Virus record (IMG/VR): IMGVR_UViG_3300030118_001815
Span: 1-22,501 of that record
Strand: one strand, 5' to 3'
DNA: 22,501 nt
Origin: a virus
This document shows positions 16,436-20,253 of the stretch, piece by piece. The notes below the pieces were generated by a model. That model had not been told where the DNA came from. It did not search any database and worked only from the letters and a program-made list of their open reading frames with translations. How positions within the stretch are numbered: the stretch's first letter is position 1; every line of letters starts with the position of its first letter. The translations under genes and the position numbers were made by a program.

Positions 16436-17455
16436 TTATTCAGTTATTATGTTTCCGCTTTCATCATACCAATCTGGATTGACAAAGCTCCATTGATGAC
16501 GACAGTTATAACCACCTCTAACTAAAAGTGGATCTCCAGACTTTTTGCCTTTCCAAGACTTACTTGCCCAAAGTTCTTTGACCTCATCAATCGTAAATAG
16601 TCCTCCTGGTCTTGTATCATATTCCCCACTTCTTACAAGCCTACAATGATCTCTGGTTGTAGGGATAATGTTTCCGAAATACTTACACATTGTTAAACCA
16701 GCTTCTATTGATTTATGTAAATTAAGTTGTGCGTCAAATTCTCTAAGTCCATCATTAAGAATCTGTCCAGCATATCGTTTCATGTTTTCGCCTGACCTAG
16801 TAGTTGCATATTTAGATTGTAATGTTTGAATATTTTTATCTAATCTATTTCTAATAACAGCTCTTTCAGGACCAGCTATTCTTCTAACTCTAACTTCATC
16901 TCTTTTTATTTGAGTTATTAATTTATTTACAGCCTCATCATCAGCAGTAGCATAGATTCCATTTATTGTTTGTCTAAGTTCTCCTTGCAACTCAGTAAAG
17001 TTAGTTCCTACTAATGTACTTTGATAAATTTTATCTGAAATTGTTCTTGTAAATGTATTTGCAACATCCTTGAATTGAGTAAATGTTTGTCTTTTTAAAT
17101 TTTGTATAACAGATAAGTCAGAATCAGTTAGTTGTTGGAACTCAACAGGGATACGTCCAATAGTTTTAAATGCTCTTTCTATTCTTTTAGCTTGTTTTGA
17201 ATAACCCTCTCTAACAACTTTATCTGACCATGCTAAGTATTCTCTTTCTAAAATTTCTCTAATGATAGGTCTTGATGCAACTGCCGCTTTCAGTTCAAAT
17301 AACTTACCCTCTTTGATAGGAAGTGTTCCAGCATAAGCTATAACTTCTTTTTCAATTTTATCTAAAGCTCTTATTAAATCTTCATAGTATCTTGCTTCAG
17401 CTAACTCTATTTGAGAGATTCTATAATTTGCCATTTGTTCAACAATATCGGACAT
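16436..17455 (-). CDS. Minor head protein (SPP1 gp7 / Mu gpF-like)
   Basis: A 339-residue protein. The first 230 residues are helical and charged. The last 90 carry the family signature: CKYFGNIIPTTRDHCRLVRS, then TIDEVKELW, and GGYNCRHQWSFVNPDW. Cysteine-rich endings of the form C...C.l..G........H..CRc.w are typical of SPP1 gp7 / Mu gpF-type head morphogenesis proteins, which associate with the portal. In most phages the gene directly follows portal, but here a reversed five-gene cassette separates them. No Shine-Dalgarno site is obvious before the ATG at 17455, which is odd because the next two genes have strong ones. Confidence 0.85.
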   Translation of the reverse strand: MSDIVEQMANYRISQIELAEARYYEDLIRALDKIEKEVIAYAGTLPIKEGKLFELKAAVASRPIIREILEREYLAWSDKVVREGYSKQAKRIERAFKTIGRIPVEFQQLTDSDLSVIQNLKRQTFTQFKDVANTFTRTISDKIYQSTLVGTNFTELQGELRQTINGIYATADDEAVNKLITQIKRDEVRVRRIAGPERAVIRNRLDKNIQTLQSKYATTRSGENMKRYAGQILNDGLREFDAQLNLHKSIEAGLTMCKYFGNIIPTTRDHCRLVRSGEYDTRPGGLFTIDEVKELWASKSWKGKKSGDPLLVRGGYNCRHQWSFVNPDWYDESGNIITE

Positions 17456-17633
17456 GAAAGTTAAATATCATTAAAAGTCTAAAAAACCAAGCAACAGATA
17501 AAATAAATTTTTTTTCGATTGGTAACTGTAACTCATTTTTTACAAATTAGACAAAATCGTTTAGAACCTACAGGATGTGTAAAACCGAATGTTGTATAGT
17601 AGGGAATGAAAAAAAAACAAAGAGGAGAAAAAA
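17456..17633. promoter_or_regulatory. Divergent intergenic region, candidate promoters both ways
   Basis: This 178-base AT-rich region separates the minus-strand head gene from the plus-strand cassette, so it should contain the plus-strand promoter and possibly one for 17455. On the plus strand a -10-like TATAGT lies at 17595-17600, about 11 bases before the A-rich leader. No good -35 hexamer stands at the expected spacing. It also holds a T8 run near 17510-17518. On the minus strand only weak sigma-70-like hexamers can be found. Promoter function is inferred from gene orientation more than from motifs. Confidence 0.4.
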
Positions 17634-17813
17634 ATGATCATGTCAAAAAGATATTGGGATGAACTAATAGAGAAATCTAAAAACGAAAACTTAGATCCTT
17701 TAGAAGTTGTTCCATTACATGAACAAGAACAAGAAGGCAAAATTCTAGATGAAGAATCTAGATGGATGCTAGCTAAACAAAAAATACTAAACGGAGGAAA
17801 AACAAATGAATAA
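17634..17813 (+). CDS. Small cassette protein 1 (59 residues), unknown
   Basis: The ATG at 17634 is preceded by AGAGGAG at good spacing. It reads MIMSKRYWDELIEKSKNENL, then DPLEVVPLHEQEQEGKILDE and a C-terminal helix with SRWMLAKQKILNGG. It is charged and mainly helical, with no membrane segment or cysteine. The last eight bases overlap the next gene's start (ATGAATAA). It has no family I recognise. It is the first gene of the plus-strand cassette. Its mixture of short, charged, soluble genes resembles early host-takeover genes of other phages, but that is inference. Confidence 0.65.
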   Translation: MIMSKRYWDELIEKSKNENLDPLEVVPLHEQEQEGKILDEESRWMLAKQKILNGGKTNE

Positions 17814-17976
17814 AAGACAAGAAAATTTATTAATGAAAGCTATGAACGATGGAATTAAATTAGAGAAATCTAGGCATCCTGACTTTGATGAAAATAAACA
17901 TAAGATCAAAGTTACCATAGATACTATTAATGGAACTCATCTAAAGTTAAATTTTCAGAAAGTAGATAAAAAATAA
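17806..17976 (+). CDS. Small cassette protein 2 (56 residues), unknown
   Basis: The ATG at 17806 overlaps the end of gene 1 by eight bases and has GGAGG about eight bases upstream. It reads MNKRQENLLMKAMNDGIKLE, a helix, then KSRHPDFDENKHKIKVTIDT and a strand pair ending KLNFQKVDKK. The pattern is a short helix followed by a beta hairpin. No catalytic or metal-binding motif is visible, and I do not recognise a family. A 60-base gap follows before the next leader, so the cassette may have two transcription or translation units. Confidence 0.6.
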   Translation: MNKRQENLLMKAMNDGIKLEKSRHPDFDENKHKIKVTIDTINGTHLKLNFQKVDKK

Positions 17977-18036
17977 CCACTAACTATGCTCTGTAATAAT
18001 TGTTGATCCTAATAATGGAATATACGAGGCTTAGTT

Positions 18037-18063
18037 ATGAAAAAAACAAACAGAGAGGAAAAA
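18037..18063 (+). promoter_or_regulatory. A-rich leader with Shine-Dalgarno, second copy
   Basis: The segment ATGAAAAAAACAAACAGAGA followed by GGAAAAA leads into ATG at 18064. A near copy, ATGAAAAAAAAACAAAGAGG followed by AGAAAAAA, leads into ATG at 17634. In the second copy the first ATG is in frame with the gene and would add nine residues (MKKTNREEK). In the first copy it opens an unrelated 18-codon frame. The shared element is therefore the A-tract and the GAGG ribosome site and not a peptide. A -10-like TATACG lies at 18021-18026. Confidence 0.5.
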
Positions 18064-18342
18064 ATGATACACGAAAACAAAGCAAACATCGGAGACACAA
18101 TAAGAGCTTATGACTTCCAACCTAGAGAGGGTGTTGGTCATTATTTTATTGAAGGTAAAGTTATTGAAAAAGGTAACTGTGATAACAAATATTACAAATG
18201 TTACAAAATTGCTTTAACTAGAAAAATTGCAAATGGAAAAGATGTTACTCCAAAAGTTGAAGATAACATTTGGTATGTTCCTTTTGAAATTTACTACGAT
18301 GAACATGAAAACAGAGTAACAAAAATAGAGGAGAAGAAATAA
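18064..18342 (+). CDS. Conserved hypothetical protein, cassette gene 3
   Basis: A 92-residue protein. It reads ANIGDTIRAYDFQPREGVGH, then YFIEGKVIEKGNCDNKYYKC and a strand with YKIALTRKIANGK, and closes NIWYVPFEIYYDEHENRVTK. This alternates beta strands around a small barrel. The pattern IGDTIRAYDF...YxEGxVIE...Y.I......G......vPxE......RV is one I associate with a small conserved protein of unknown function in marine T4-like and other phages. I prefer ATG 18064 because GAGAGGAA lies just upstream; ATG 18037 is in frame but has no ribosome site. Its stop overlaps the ArdC-like gene (TAATG). Confidence 0.72.
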   Translation: MIHENKANIGDTIRAYDFQPREGVGHYFIEGKVIEKGNCDNKYYKCYKIALTRKIANGKDVTPKVEDNIWYVPFEIYYDEHENRVTKIEEKK

Positions 18343-18584
18343 TGTACTACAATCTATATACAAAAAAAGAGTTCTCAGGTAAGAATCTTGAGAAATTACA
18401 ATCTACAAACCTACAAGGTGGGTTTTGTACTTTTAACCAAGCTAGAAAGATGGGTGCTACTATAATCAAAGGAAGTAAGTGTGTGGCTAAACTTTCTAGA
18501 ATGGTACAGGATGGTAAGAAAGAAGAATTTAGAAGCTATCCTGTTTTTCATGAATCACAAATCAAACCAAGGGAGGAAAACTAA
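18342..18584 (+). CDS. Mini ArdC N-terminal-domain-like protein (possible anti-restriction)
   Basis: An 80-residue basic protein. Residues about 28-75 follow the ArdC N-terminal domain pattern: TFNQARKMGATIIKGSK (family form TFkQAxelGgxvxKGeK), then a strand with AKLSRM, a charged loop, and FRSYPVFHESQI (family form y.VFNv.QI). In ArdC and TraC primases this domain binds single-stranded DNA, and ArdC protects incoming DNA from restriction. The usual C-terminal metalloprotease domain is absent, as is the N-terminal YxxW-type segment. It is joined to both neighbours by TAATG. Anti-restriction or ssDNA binding is an inference from motif similarity. Confidence 0.65.
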   Translation: MYYNLYTKKEFSGKNLEKLQSTNLQGGFCTFNQARKMGATIIKGSKCVAKLSRMVQDGKKEEFRSYPVFHESQIKPREEN

Positions 18585-18823
18585 TGGATAATTTTATTGC
18601 TATTCAACCAATAGGAAGTTGGAATGTTGAGTTAATTAACATGAACCAAGTTCAAAATATTATTCTTTCTGTCAAAGGCGATGCTGATGACAGAGCAATA
18701 ATTAAATTTGTTGGTGGTTATAATTTAGATGTAAAAAAATCTGAACTTCTAAAAAAAATGAATAAAGATGTTTCATCTATGGAAAATAAAATAGAAGATA
18801 TAAGACTAAAAAGAGTTGTTTAG
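18584..18823 (+). CDS. Small cassette protein 5 (79 residues), unknown
   Basis: It reads MDNFIAIQPIGSWNVELINM, then NQVQNIILSVKGDADDRAII and KFVGGYNLDVKKSELLKKM before a charged helix ending IRLKRVV. The core (N...V..I........I.F.GG..L.V..S.....k) is a small beta sheet pattern also seen in FlbD-like and LytTR-like small proteins; the resemblance is weak and should not be taken as a family call. It is the last gene of the plus cassette and stops 17 bases before the convergent portal stop. The start shares a base with the upstream stop (TAATG). Confidence 0.62.
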   Translation: MDNFIAIQPIGSWNVELINMNQVQNIILSVKGDADDRAIIKFVGGYNLDVKKSELLKKMNKDVSSMENKIEDIRLKRVV

Positions 18824-18834
18824 TTAATTAACTT

Positions 18835-18869
18835 AAGGGGTTACTGTATAGGTTCTGCAGTAACCTCTT
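18835..18869 (+). terminator. Hairpin ending the plus cassette (convergent with portal)
   Basis: AAGGGGTTACTG (18835-18846) pairs with CAGTAACCTCTT (18858-18869), giving a 12-pair stem with one G-U wobble in plus-strand RNA and an 11-base loop. In minus-strand RNA the wobble becomes an A-C mismatch, so the stem is better for the plus direction. It starts 12 bases after the cassette's last stop and lies across the end of the portal gene. The downstream plus sequence is pyrimidine-rich (CTTCTTCAACTTC) but has no long U run, so termination efficiency is uncertain. Confidence 0.55.
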
Positions 18870-20253
18870 CTTCTTCAACTTCATCTTGAGTAAATTCTCC
18901 AACTTCAGCTTTAGCATCAATCTCATCAAAGATCATTCCTAACTTCTCATCATCATCGACTATTGATCTTGCTATCTCTTTGTCTATTTCTTTAGATAGT
19001 GTTGGCGATCCTACATTGATGGCTTTTGCTTGTTGATAGAACATAAGATCAGAAGCGTAATCTCTAATATTGAATGTATCAGGATAATTTATTTCTCCGT
19101 CAAACTCTCTACCTTGGAACTCAGCAAAAAGTTTAAATAATTGTTCTTCTGCTAACTGTAAGTGATCTGCTTTTTCAGATAGTCTAGCATTCAATAATTC
19201 AAATTCTGTTTGTAAAGCTATTCCTGATGCAATTTGAGTTTTAGTTGTTCTTACTGCTCCAACATGACTAATTCTATCAATAGCTTCAACTTTAGTTTTG
19301 ATTGAATCCATGATCGCTTGTAAGTTTTGACCTGATGGTTGTAGTAGATAAGGTTTTAAGTTTGGTTCCATTTCTTCTGGGATTTCAATTATAGCACCAG
19401 CTCCAGCTGAAGCATTGACACCCGGTGTCTTAACTAATGATGGATGGTTTGTTAATCTAACAAGTTGTTCAATTTCTGAATATTCATTGTAAATAGATTT
19501 TTGTAAGTCAGCAATATCTGAAAGGTCGCTCATGCCAATTCCTCTTTTGTGAGATTTAGAATTGTACAAAATAACTGCTGGTATTTTACCTAAGCGATTG
19601 GTAACAGTATCTATTAGTTTAGGGTCATCATAATCACTTTTTTGATATACAGTTTCAATTCGATCTGGATACCAAAGTCTAAAGTATATCCCACCCTCTT
19701 TATCAACTTCTTCTCTAATCTTCATATAGTTAAGAACGTATCTGCCGTTGACTAATCTCTCAAAGTTCCAATCAAATACGTTCTCAGGAGTAACTATAGA
19801 TAAATAAGGTCTAATCTCTGCTTCAAGTTCTTGTGCTAAAGTTTGTGTTGTGAAAGTTGGTTTATCTAAAAATAAAAAACAATGACCGTATATAGATGCA
19901 AAGTTTTGAGCTTGTTGTATTACTGTATTAAAATTATTACCATCTAAGTCAGCATCTTTTAAGAATCTTTCTAAACTAGGATCGTCAGCTAAGTTTCCAA
20001 AATCTCTGCTTGGTTTAACTCTAAATAAAAATGAAGAATAAATTTGAATAATATTTTTACAATGATTGTCTAATGCTGTGTTGCCTAGTCTTTTTGCATA
20101 TTCGTTATCAAGTTCTAAATTATATCTATGTAAGTATTGTCCAGCAGAATAATCAAATCCACCATTATAAGATCGAATATAGAACTCCCACTTATTTACG
20201 CTTTCTTCGTAGTCTTTGTGTACATCTAATATTTCTTGCCTTGAATATGCCAT
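18841..20253 (-). CDS. Portal protein
   Basis: A 470-residue protein directly after the large terminase gene. Visible parts include the N-terminal region (MAYSRQEILDVHKDYEESVN), DNHCKNIIQIYSSFLFRVKP leading into a wing-type segment, an ASIYGHCFLFLDKP strand, YLSIVTPENVFDWNFERLVN, LVRLTNHPSLVKTPGVN, and a helical clip/crown region with AIDRISHVGAVRTTKTQIAS. The C-terminus is strongly acidic (TQDEVEEEEVTAEPIQ), as in several portals. Length and gene order fit the dodecameric ring that gates DNA entry and anchors the terminase. It begins one base after the terminase stop. The downstream minor head gene is displaced by the reversed cassette. Confidence 0.9.
   Translation of the reverse strand: MAYSRQEILDVHKDYEESVNKWEFYIRSYNGGFDYSAGQYLHRYNLELDNEYAKRLGNTALDNHCKNIIQIYSSFLFRVKPSRDFGNLADDPSLERFLKDADLDGNNFNTVIQQAQNFASIYGHCFLFLDKPTFTTQTLAQELEAEIRPYLSIVTPENVFDWNFERLVNGRYVLNYMKIREEVDKEGGIYFRLWYPDRIETVYQKSDYDDPKLIDTVTNRLGKIPAVILYNSKSHKRGIGMSDLSDIADLQKSIYNEYSEIEQLVRLTNHPSLVKTPGVNASAGAGAIIEIPEEMEPNLKPYLLQPSGQNLQAIMDSIKTKVEAIDRISHVGAVRTTKTQIASGIALQTEFELLNARLSEKADHLQLAEEQLFKLFAEFQGREFDGEINYPDTFNIRDYASDLMFYQQAKAINVGSPTLSKEIDKEIARSIVDDDEKLGMIFDEIDAKAEVGEFTQDEVEEEEVTAEPIQ

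Follow-up and report, generated by a model that had tools for sequence, protein, structure and literature searches.

What purpose is served by a block of small genes that lies between the portal gene of a phage and the next gene of its head module, on the opposite strand to both? This question is raised by a stretch of 22,501 nucleotides (hereafter, the window; IMG/VR virus record IMGVR_UViG_3300030118_001815), in which an earlier note, made from the letters alone, had pointed to five reversed small genes between the portal and a head gene. This arrangement was borne out: the ORFs at 17634–18823 are on the plus strand and the flanking genes on the minus strand. The locus consists of the following features, in order of coordinates.

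16436..17455, minus strand: head protein gene, the right wall of the slot; located directly after the portal in relatives with an empty slot
17456..17633, no strand assigned: divergent leader between the head gene and the cassette, with the conserved block CTACAGGATGTGTAAAACCGAATGTTGTATAGT and a −10-like TATAGT at 17595–17600
17634..17813, plus strand: cassette gene 1, 59 aa; the constant first gene of the cassette in this clade
17806..17976, plus strand: cassette gene 2, 56 aa, pI 9.8; missing from some relatives but found in most
17977..18063, plus strand: inner leader before gene 3, with a conserved non-coding block of about 65 nt
18064..18342, plus strand: cassette gene 3, 92 aa; frame open from 18037; a variable position
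18342..18584, plus strand: cassette gene 4, 80 aa, pI 9.6; solo ArdC N-terminal domain
18584..18823, plus strand: cassette gene 5, 79 aa; the variable last gene
18835..18869, plus strand: 3′ hairpin of the cassette, terminator-like, −18.5 kcal/mol; overlaps the last codons of the portal gene
18841..20253, minus strand: portal protein gene, the left wall of the slot; PHROG 145 (portal, 6.1e-63) and Pfam SPP1_portal

The portal protein is 74–76% identical to those of the Pelagibacter phages HTVC026P, HTVC111P, HTVC112P, and HTVC202P, and sequence comparison assigns the source of the window to the group of HTVC111P and HTVC112P, relatives of which infect SAR11. Given that three close relatives are 33–35 kb long, the 22.5-kb record is probably a fragment. 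In three close relatives, the cassette is the sole multi-gene unit opposite in strand to the rest of the genome. The head gene corresponds in position to HTVC112P gp30 and to the gene that follows the portal in 89 relatives with empty junctions (see below). Profile searches (PHROG and Pfam) gave no match of its own for this gene, so that the designation “minor head protein,” used in the earlier note, is putative and positional. In HTVC026P (L112:4914-6740), the head gene that follows the portal encodes 608 aa, compared to 339 aa in the window, and includes a long added C-terminal part.

Strong GGAG-type ribosome sites precede all five cassette genes, start and stop codons overlap between genes 1 and 2, 3 and 4, and 4 and 5, and the sign of both the GC and the AT skew reverses across exactly the cassette stretch. 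For gene 3, the start at 18064 was preferred to 18037 because this ATG is the sole one of the gene with a good ribosome site. Comparison of the window with its relatives yielded Ka/Ks values of 0.09–0.29 for gene 1, 0.04–0.27 for gene 2, and 0.14–0.15 for gene 4, indicative of purifying selection, which argues that these three are real genes; the signal for gene 5 is weaker (0.72, from a comparison with one distant homologue). Given the purifying selection, the ribosome sites, and the skew, we rejected the possibility that the ORFs are spurious. We likewise rejected an integrative element, satellite, or transposon with an enzyme of its own because the content amounts to ORFs of 56–101 aa only. 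No tRNA or known RNA was found in the cassette, and none of its products matched PADLOC defense proteins.

The history of the locus was traced by collecting the portal gene and its head-gene neighbors from IMG/VR and isolate genomes and measuring the intergenic interval. This yielded 114 distinct junctions between portal and head gene, 89 of them empty, with a gap of −1 to 6 nt (typically TAATGAATG), and 25 filled, with 0.35–1.45 kb each; because similarity to the window guided the choice of scans, 25/114 is not a population frequency. Among the isolates, HTVC112P and HTVC026P have empty junctions, and HTVC111P and HTVC202P each carry one reversed hypothetical gene (gp32 and gp29, respectively) in the same slot. 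These isolate genes share the site and the orientation with the cassette but consist of a single gene each, with unrelated cargo and a different leader. The most direct comparison is provided by L055 (empty) and L060 (filled), which have flanks that are 99.6% and 99.3% identical and in which the insert of L060 is placed exactly between the portal stop codon and the head-gene start codon. Comparison of filled/empty pairs revealed no repeats bordering the junctions. When slot occupancy was mapped onto a tree of 103 portals, parsimony required 13 changes, at least nine of which are forced by well-supported branches. Thus, comparison of the portal-to-head interval across relatives revealed a variable region rather than the same genes in the same place, and core-gene status of the cassette was rejected based on the 89 empty junctions and the changes on the tree. 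The proposal of the earlier note that the cassette is a moron or a gained island is accordingly well supported: the slot is variable and usually empty in relatives, its cargo is exchanged, and, as in morons, the unit is inserted between genes that are adjacent in close relatives (the empty junctions and the L055/L060 pair).

In all 25 filled junctions, the gene-sized ORFs that could be traced between relatives are oriented opposite to the head genes. So strict a bias, maintained over at least nine supported state changes and with a hairpin located at the point of convergence, could be taken to mean that the reversed unit is a timing switch, in which convergent early transcription hinders leaky readthrough from the portal into the capsid genes until late in infection. 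This explanation appears improbable to us, considering that 89 of the 114 junctions are empty, those of near-identical phages included, and that purifying selection acts on the coding sequences of the cargo, which would be superfluous for a pure switch.

Both ends of the cassette are conserved. In the divergent leader, the block CTACAGGATGTGTAAAACCGAATGTTGTATAGT is near-invariant across 12 relatives, whereas the adjoining non-coding bases vary. The block in the inner leader, which may be a promoter, a leader, or an exchange anchor, is, in the alignment, nearly invariant ahead of whichever gene fills position 3 of the cassette, and a pattern derived from it matched 10 viral contigs, nine of which had already been mapped to the cassette. 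The inner leader was rejected as a structured RNA (fold z −2.0 compared to chance, with folds that differ among relatives). Leader types recur with different cargo: one precedes seven unrelated cargos and another precedes three. The “own leaders” of the earlier note are thus real as conserved blocks, and a promoter within them is a candidate; for this AT-rich DNA, shuffled versions matched the consensus −35/−10 hexamers at least as well. Filled slots with one type of leader (L052, L060, L111, and others) have AGAACAA repeats immediately upstream of the start codon of the head gene.

The 3′ hairpin, also claimed previously, stands out from shuffled sequences on the plus strand (z −5.1) and, to a lesser extent, on the minus strand (z −3.9). 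A pattern scan did not recover it, probably because the scan accepts only hairpins with short loops and a T-run. The stem is retained in 10 members of the clade, and HTVC202P retains the common stem by paired changes, with AGGCGATC..GGTCGCCT replaced by AGGCCATC..GGTGGCCT. Hairpins at the end of the portal gene are present in 23 of the 25 filled junctions (the exceptions are L052 and L060) and in none of the 89 empty ones. Possession of such a hairpin agrees with another feature of morons, a terminator of their own, although, given that the U-tail is weak in the window, termination at this site is putative.

The combination of constant ends with variable content suggests exchange by homologous recombination. 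The cargo comprises about 21 sequence-unrelated families, for which, gene 4 aside, searches against PHROGs yielded nothing convincing; two families are common to the clade of the window and a distant lineage (L010/L094 at 55% identity and L030/L095 at 29%). Within the clade, genes 1 and 4 are nearly constant, and genes 2, 3, and 5 are swapped. Gene 1 itself is a mosaic, with two swapped versions of the C-terminal half among relatives. Genes 1, 2, and 5 have no match in annotated phages. The version of gene 3 in the window has no sibling in viral contigs, and database searches recovered a single relative, a short hypothetical gene in Synechococcus phage BUCT-ZZ01 (42.5% identity, E 4e-10). Relatives of gene 5 with 46–56% identity occupy the same slot; its predicted structure is confident (pLDDT 90.1) and beta-rich, with a C-terminal helix, and matched no solved structure above noise.

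Gene 4 belongs to a recognizable family. Its product matches Pfam PF08401 (ArdC-N) with 26.8 bits against a cut-off of 22.6, over residues 3–58 only; all 18 homologues examined match ArdC-N, and PF08401 scores above the cut-off in six related records. Among solved structures, ArdC itself is the only sequence relative. AlphaFold modeling (pLDDT 87.6) followed by a Foldseek search gave ArdC (6sna) as the best match (TM 0.75; VIA Z 9.1 over 77 residues, rmsd 2.9), followed by the beta-hairpin domains (BHD) of Rad4 with Z 5, a relationship between ArdC and Rad4 that is reported in a domain survey (PMC5512222) and likewise by the ArdC crystallographers (PMC7213743). The conserved VFH-x-S-Q-I of gene 4 is the counterpart of the VFNADQ squiggle motif (VFxxxQ). 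Thus, gene 4 resembles ArdC of plasmid R388 (PDB 6SNA, 6I89) in that it matches the N-terminal, ssDNA-binding domain of that protein in both sequence and predicted fold and shares the squiggle motif, but it differs in being phage-borne, only 80 aa long, and devoid of the metalloprotease domain, and any ArdC-like activity of it is putative. The next gene, gene 5, has no Pfam match. Gene 4 is a member of the ArdC-N domain family and not a full ArdC. The published ssDNA-binding data concern R388 ArdC; for gene 4, a DNA-binding role is probable.

The homologue of gene 4 lies elsewhere in 31 contigs from related phages, at the head of a leftward operon that includes the exonuclease and is divergent from an XRE-type regulator. 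Ten contigs, all from the clade of the window, carry gene 4 in the slot instead; in this clade, only the slot copy is present, without an early-operon gene 4. In the contig L087/L220, an empty slot coexists with a gene 4 homologue in the early operon, and no record searched contains two copies. ArdC-N is absent from the isolates HTVC026P, HTVC111P, HTVC112P, and HTVC202P, and cargo genes other than gene 4 were not found in the early operons of relatives. We refer to the operon as early based on its content, namely, the regulator, exonuclease gp03, and a primosome-like gene. In close relatives, the first early genes are preceded by a leader (..TTAGTTATGAAAAAAAACAAACAAGGAG) similar to those of the cassette. 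Together with the home position of gene 4, this resemblance makes early expression of the cassette likely, so that the “early-expressed” label of the earlier note gains indirect support from the relatives, but not from the promoter hexamers. In L029 (5790-6267), a distant gene 4 homologue (50%) lies downstream of the portal gene, on the same strand as the portal, and the small gene before it is similar in style to the gene preceding gene 4 in L004.

Two observations, the first place of gene 4 in the exonuclease gp03 operon and its occurrence as a single copy per genome, in either the early operon or the slot, are compatible with gene 4 being a replication/recombination accessory ssDNA-binding protein of the early program that was relocated in the clade of the window, the remainder of the cassette hitch-hiking with it. 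We treat this scenario as tentative, for the lack of ArdC-N in the four isolates implies that such a protein is dispensable, and the cassette genes that flank gene 4 are freely swapped.

The explanation that we prefer, with a probability of roughly 0.7, is that HTVC111P/112P-like pelagiphages have a moron-type exchange slot at the portal/head-gene boundary, now filled by the cassette, which is probably transcribed early and provides a putative DNA-binding ArdC-N protein along with accessory takeover factors. Cargo would move through homologous recombination within conserved flanking genes and within the leader and hairpin ends. Host RNA polymerase would transcribe the cassette early, from the leader of the cassette itself, with the transcript ending at the 3′ hairpin, and the late transcript, from the portal to the head genes, would run over the cassette in the antisense direction. 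Early in infection, the free-standing ArdC-N would be expected to bind phage DNA that is single-stranded or partly open and to shield it from host nucleases; alternatively, it could assist the phage exonuclease and recombination genes, which are its operonic partners in relatives. The other four small proteins would be accessory takeover factors.

A more specific proposal, close to the anti-defense role raised in the earlier note, is that the cassette is a dedicated anti-restriction or anti-defense island, in which gene 4 blocks type I/II restriction in the manner of the plasmid ArdC, and the other genes counter other defenses. Gene 4, a solo ArdC-N above the Pfam cut-off, is the only gene behind this claim: apart from it, genes 1–5 showed no anti-defense match in PADLOC or profile searches. 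The protease activity of R388 ArdC is dispensable for antirestriction (PMC7213743), the turnover of the slot is like that of an arms-race locus, and the QueE, QueD, and GTP cyclohydrolase genes of close relatives could feed DNA modification against restriction. However, restriction systems are reported to be lacking in eight SAR11 MAGs and in all but one of more than 100 SAR11 genomes (PMC9516812, PMC7029224), a scarcity that weakens a simple anti-restriction role, and the home operon of gene 4 is linked to an exonuclease. We therefore regard the island proposal as doubtful and favor an early DNA-binding accessory role, in shielding or processing phage DNA, of which anti-restriction would be one possible form.

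The classical morons, which look alike (PMC7067206), invite yet another reading, lysogenic conversion, in which the cassette would be expressed from the prophage of a temperate phage. We consider this very unlikely. Ten related records, of which four are isolate genomes and several are possible fragments, yielded no phage integrase (PF00589), so that lysogen benefit is an unlikely rationale for the moron, and among 84,980 bacterial and archaeal species genomes, a single one yielded the portal family, on a 6-kb contig. This contig of the phage group (L204) is binned with a Bacteriovoracaceae MAG, probably incorrectly.

The earlier note considered the cassette the best candidate for an undescribed system, but its general kind is known, since antisense morons, for example, STMMW_20121 of prophage ST64B, have been described in late regions (PMC7067206). 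Morons are accessory loci set among structural genes, with a promoter and a terminator of their own. The slot resembles phage morons, this antisense one included, in harboring an extra unit on the opposite strand between conserved late genes, with a 3′ hairpin and relatives that lack the unit. It differs in that its phages have no detectable integrase, so that a benefit to a lysogen is improbable, and in that its cargo is multi-gene, at one fixed site, strictly reversed, with recurring ends and a promoter of its own that is only a candidate. Exchange hotspots adjoining packaging genes are known as well (PMC9122126). Like the P2/P4-like anti-phage hotspots described there, the slot is a single locus near packaging genes in which unrelated cargo turns over fast; those hotspots, however, serve the hosts of prophages or satellites and contain known defense systems, whereas the slot holds about 21 tiny, mostly unassigned families, and the host of its phages has few recognized defenses. 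Our literature search, which was incomplete, found no description of a fixed pelagiphage slot in which exchangeable cargo, always reversed, lies between recurring ends and includes a solo ArdC-N.

The anatomy of the slot and cassette is well supported, and what was a cluster of ORFans is now placed in an exchange slot that has been mapped and for which naturally occurring empty/filled pairs exist, so that the effect of the cargo can be tested in near-isogenic phages. SAR11 and its phages rank among the most abundant organisms of the sea, and the slot bears on the question of which early proteins are important to a phage whose host has almost no recognized defenses. That reversal has been strict over at least nine supported state changes is a testable regularity on the tolerance of accessory genes inside late operons. 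Speculatively, the slot might be a dedicated reversed cargo bay of SAR11 phages, where about 21 unrelated families of small takeover or counter-defense proteins, exchanged between phages by recombination at fixed ends, would act against unrecognized SAR11 functions or defenses, the reversal being selected for cargo that is on early and silent late.

Several features of the related genomes outside the slot were also observed. The close relative G003 (L197:12444-14351), as well as G001 and G002, encodes a QueE-like radical SAM protein, a QueD-like PTPS, and GTP cyclohydrolase I, the latter fused to a phosphoribosyltransferase-like N-terminus; these genes possibly represent a 7-deazaguanine DNA modification pathway. 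In HTVC111P, HTVC112P, and HTVC202P, the exonuclease-bearing early operon is opposite in strand to the late genes (the survey covered L110, L205, L206, L207, and G001–G003), whereas in HTVC026P and the clade of the window, the two are on the same strand.
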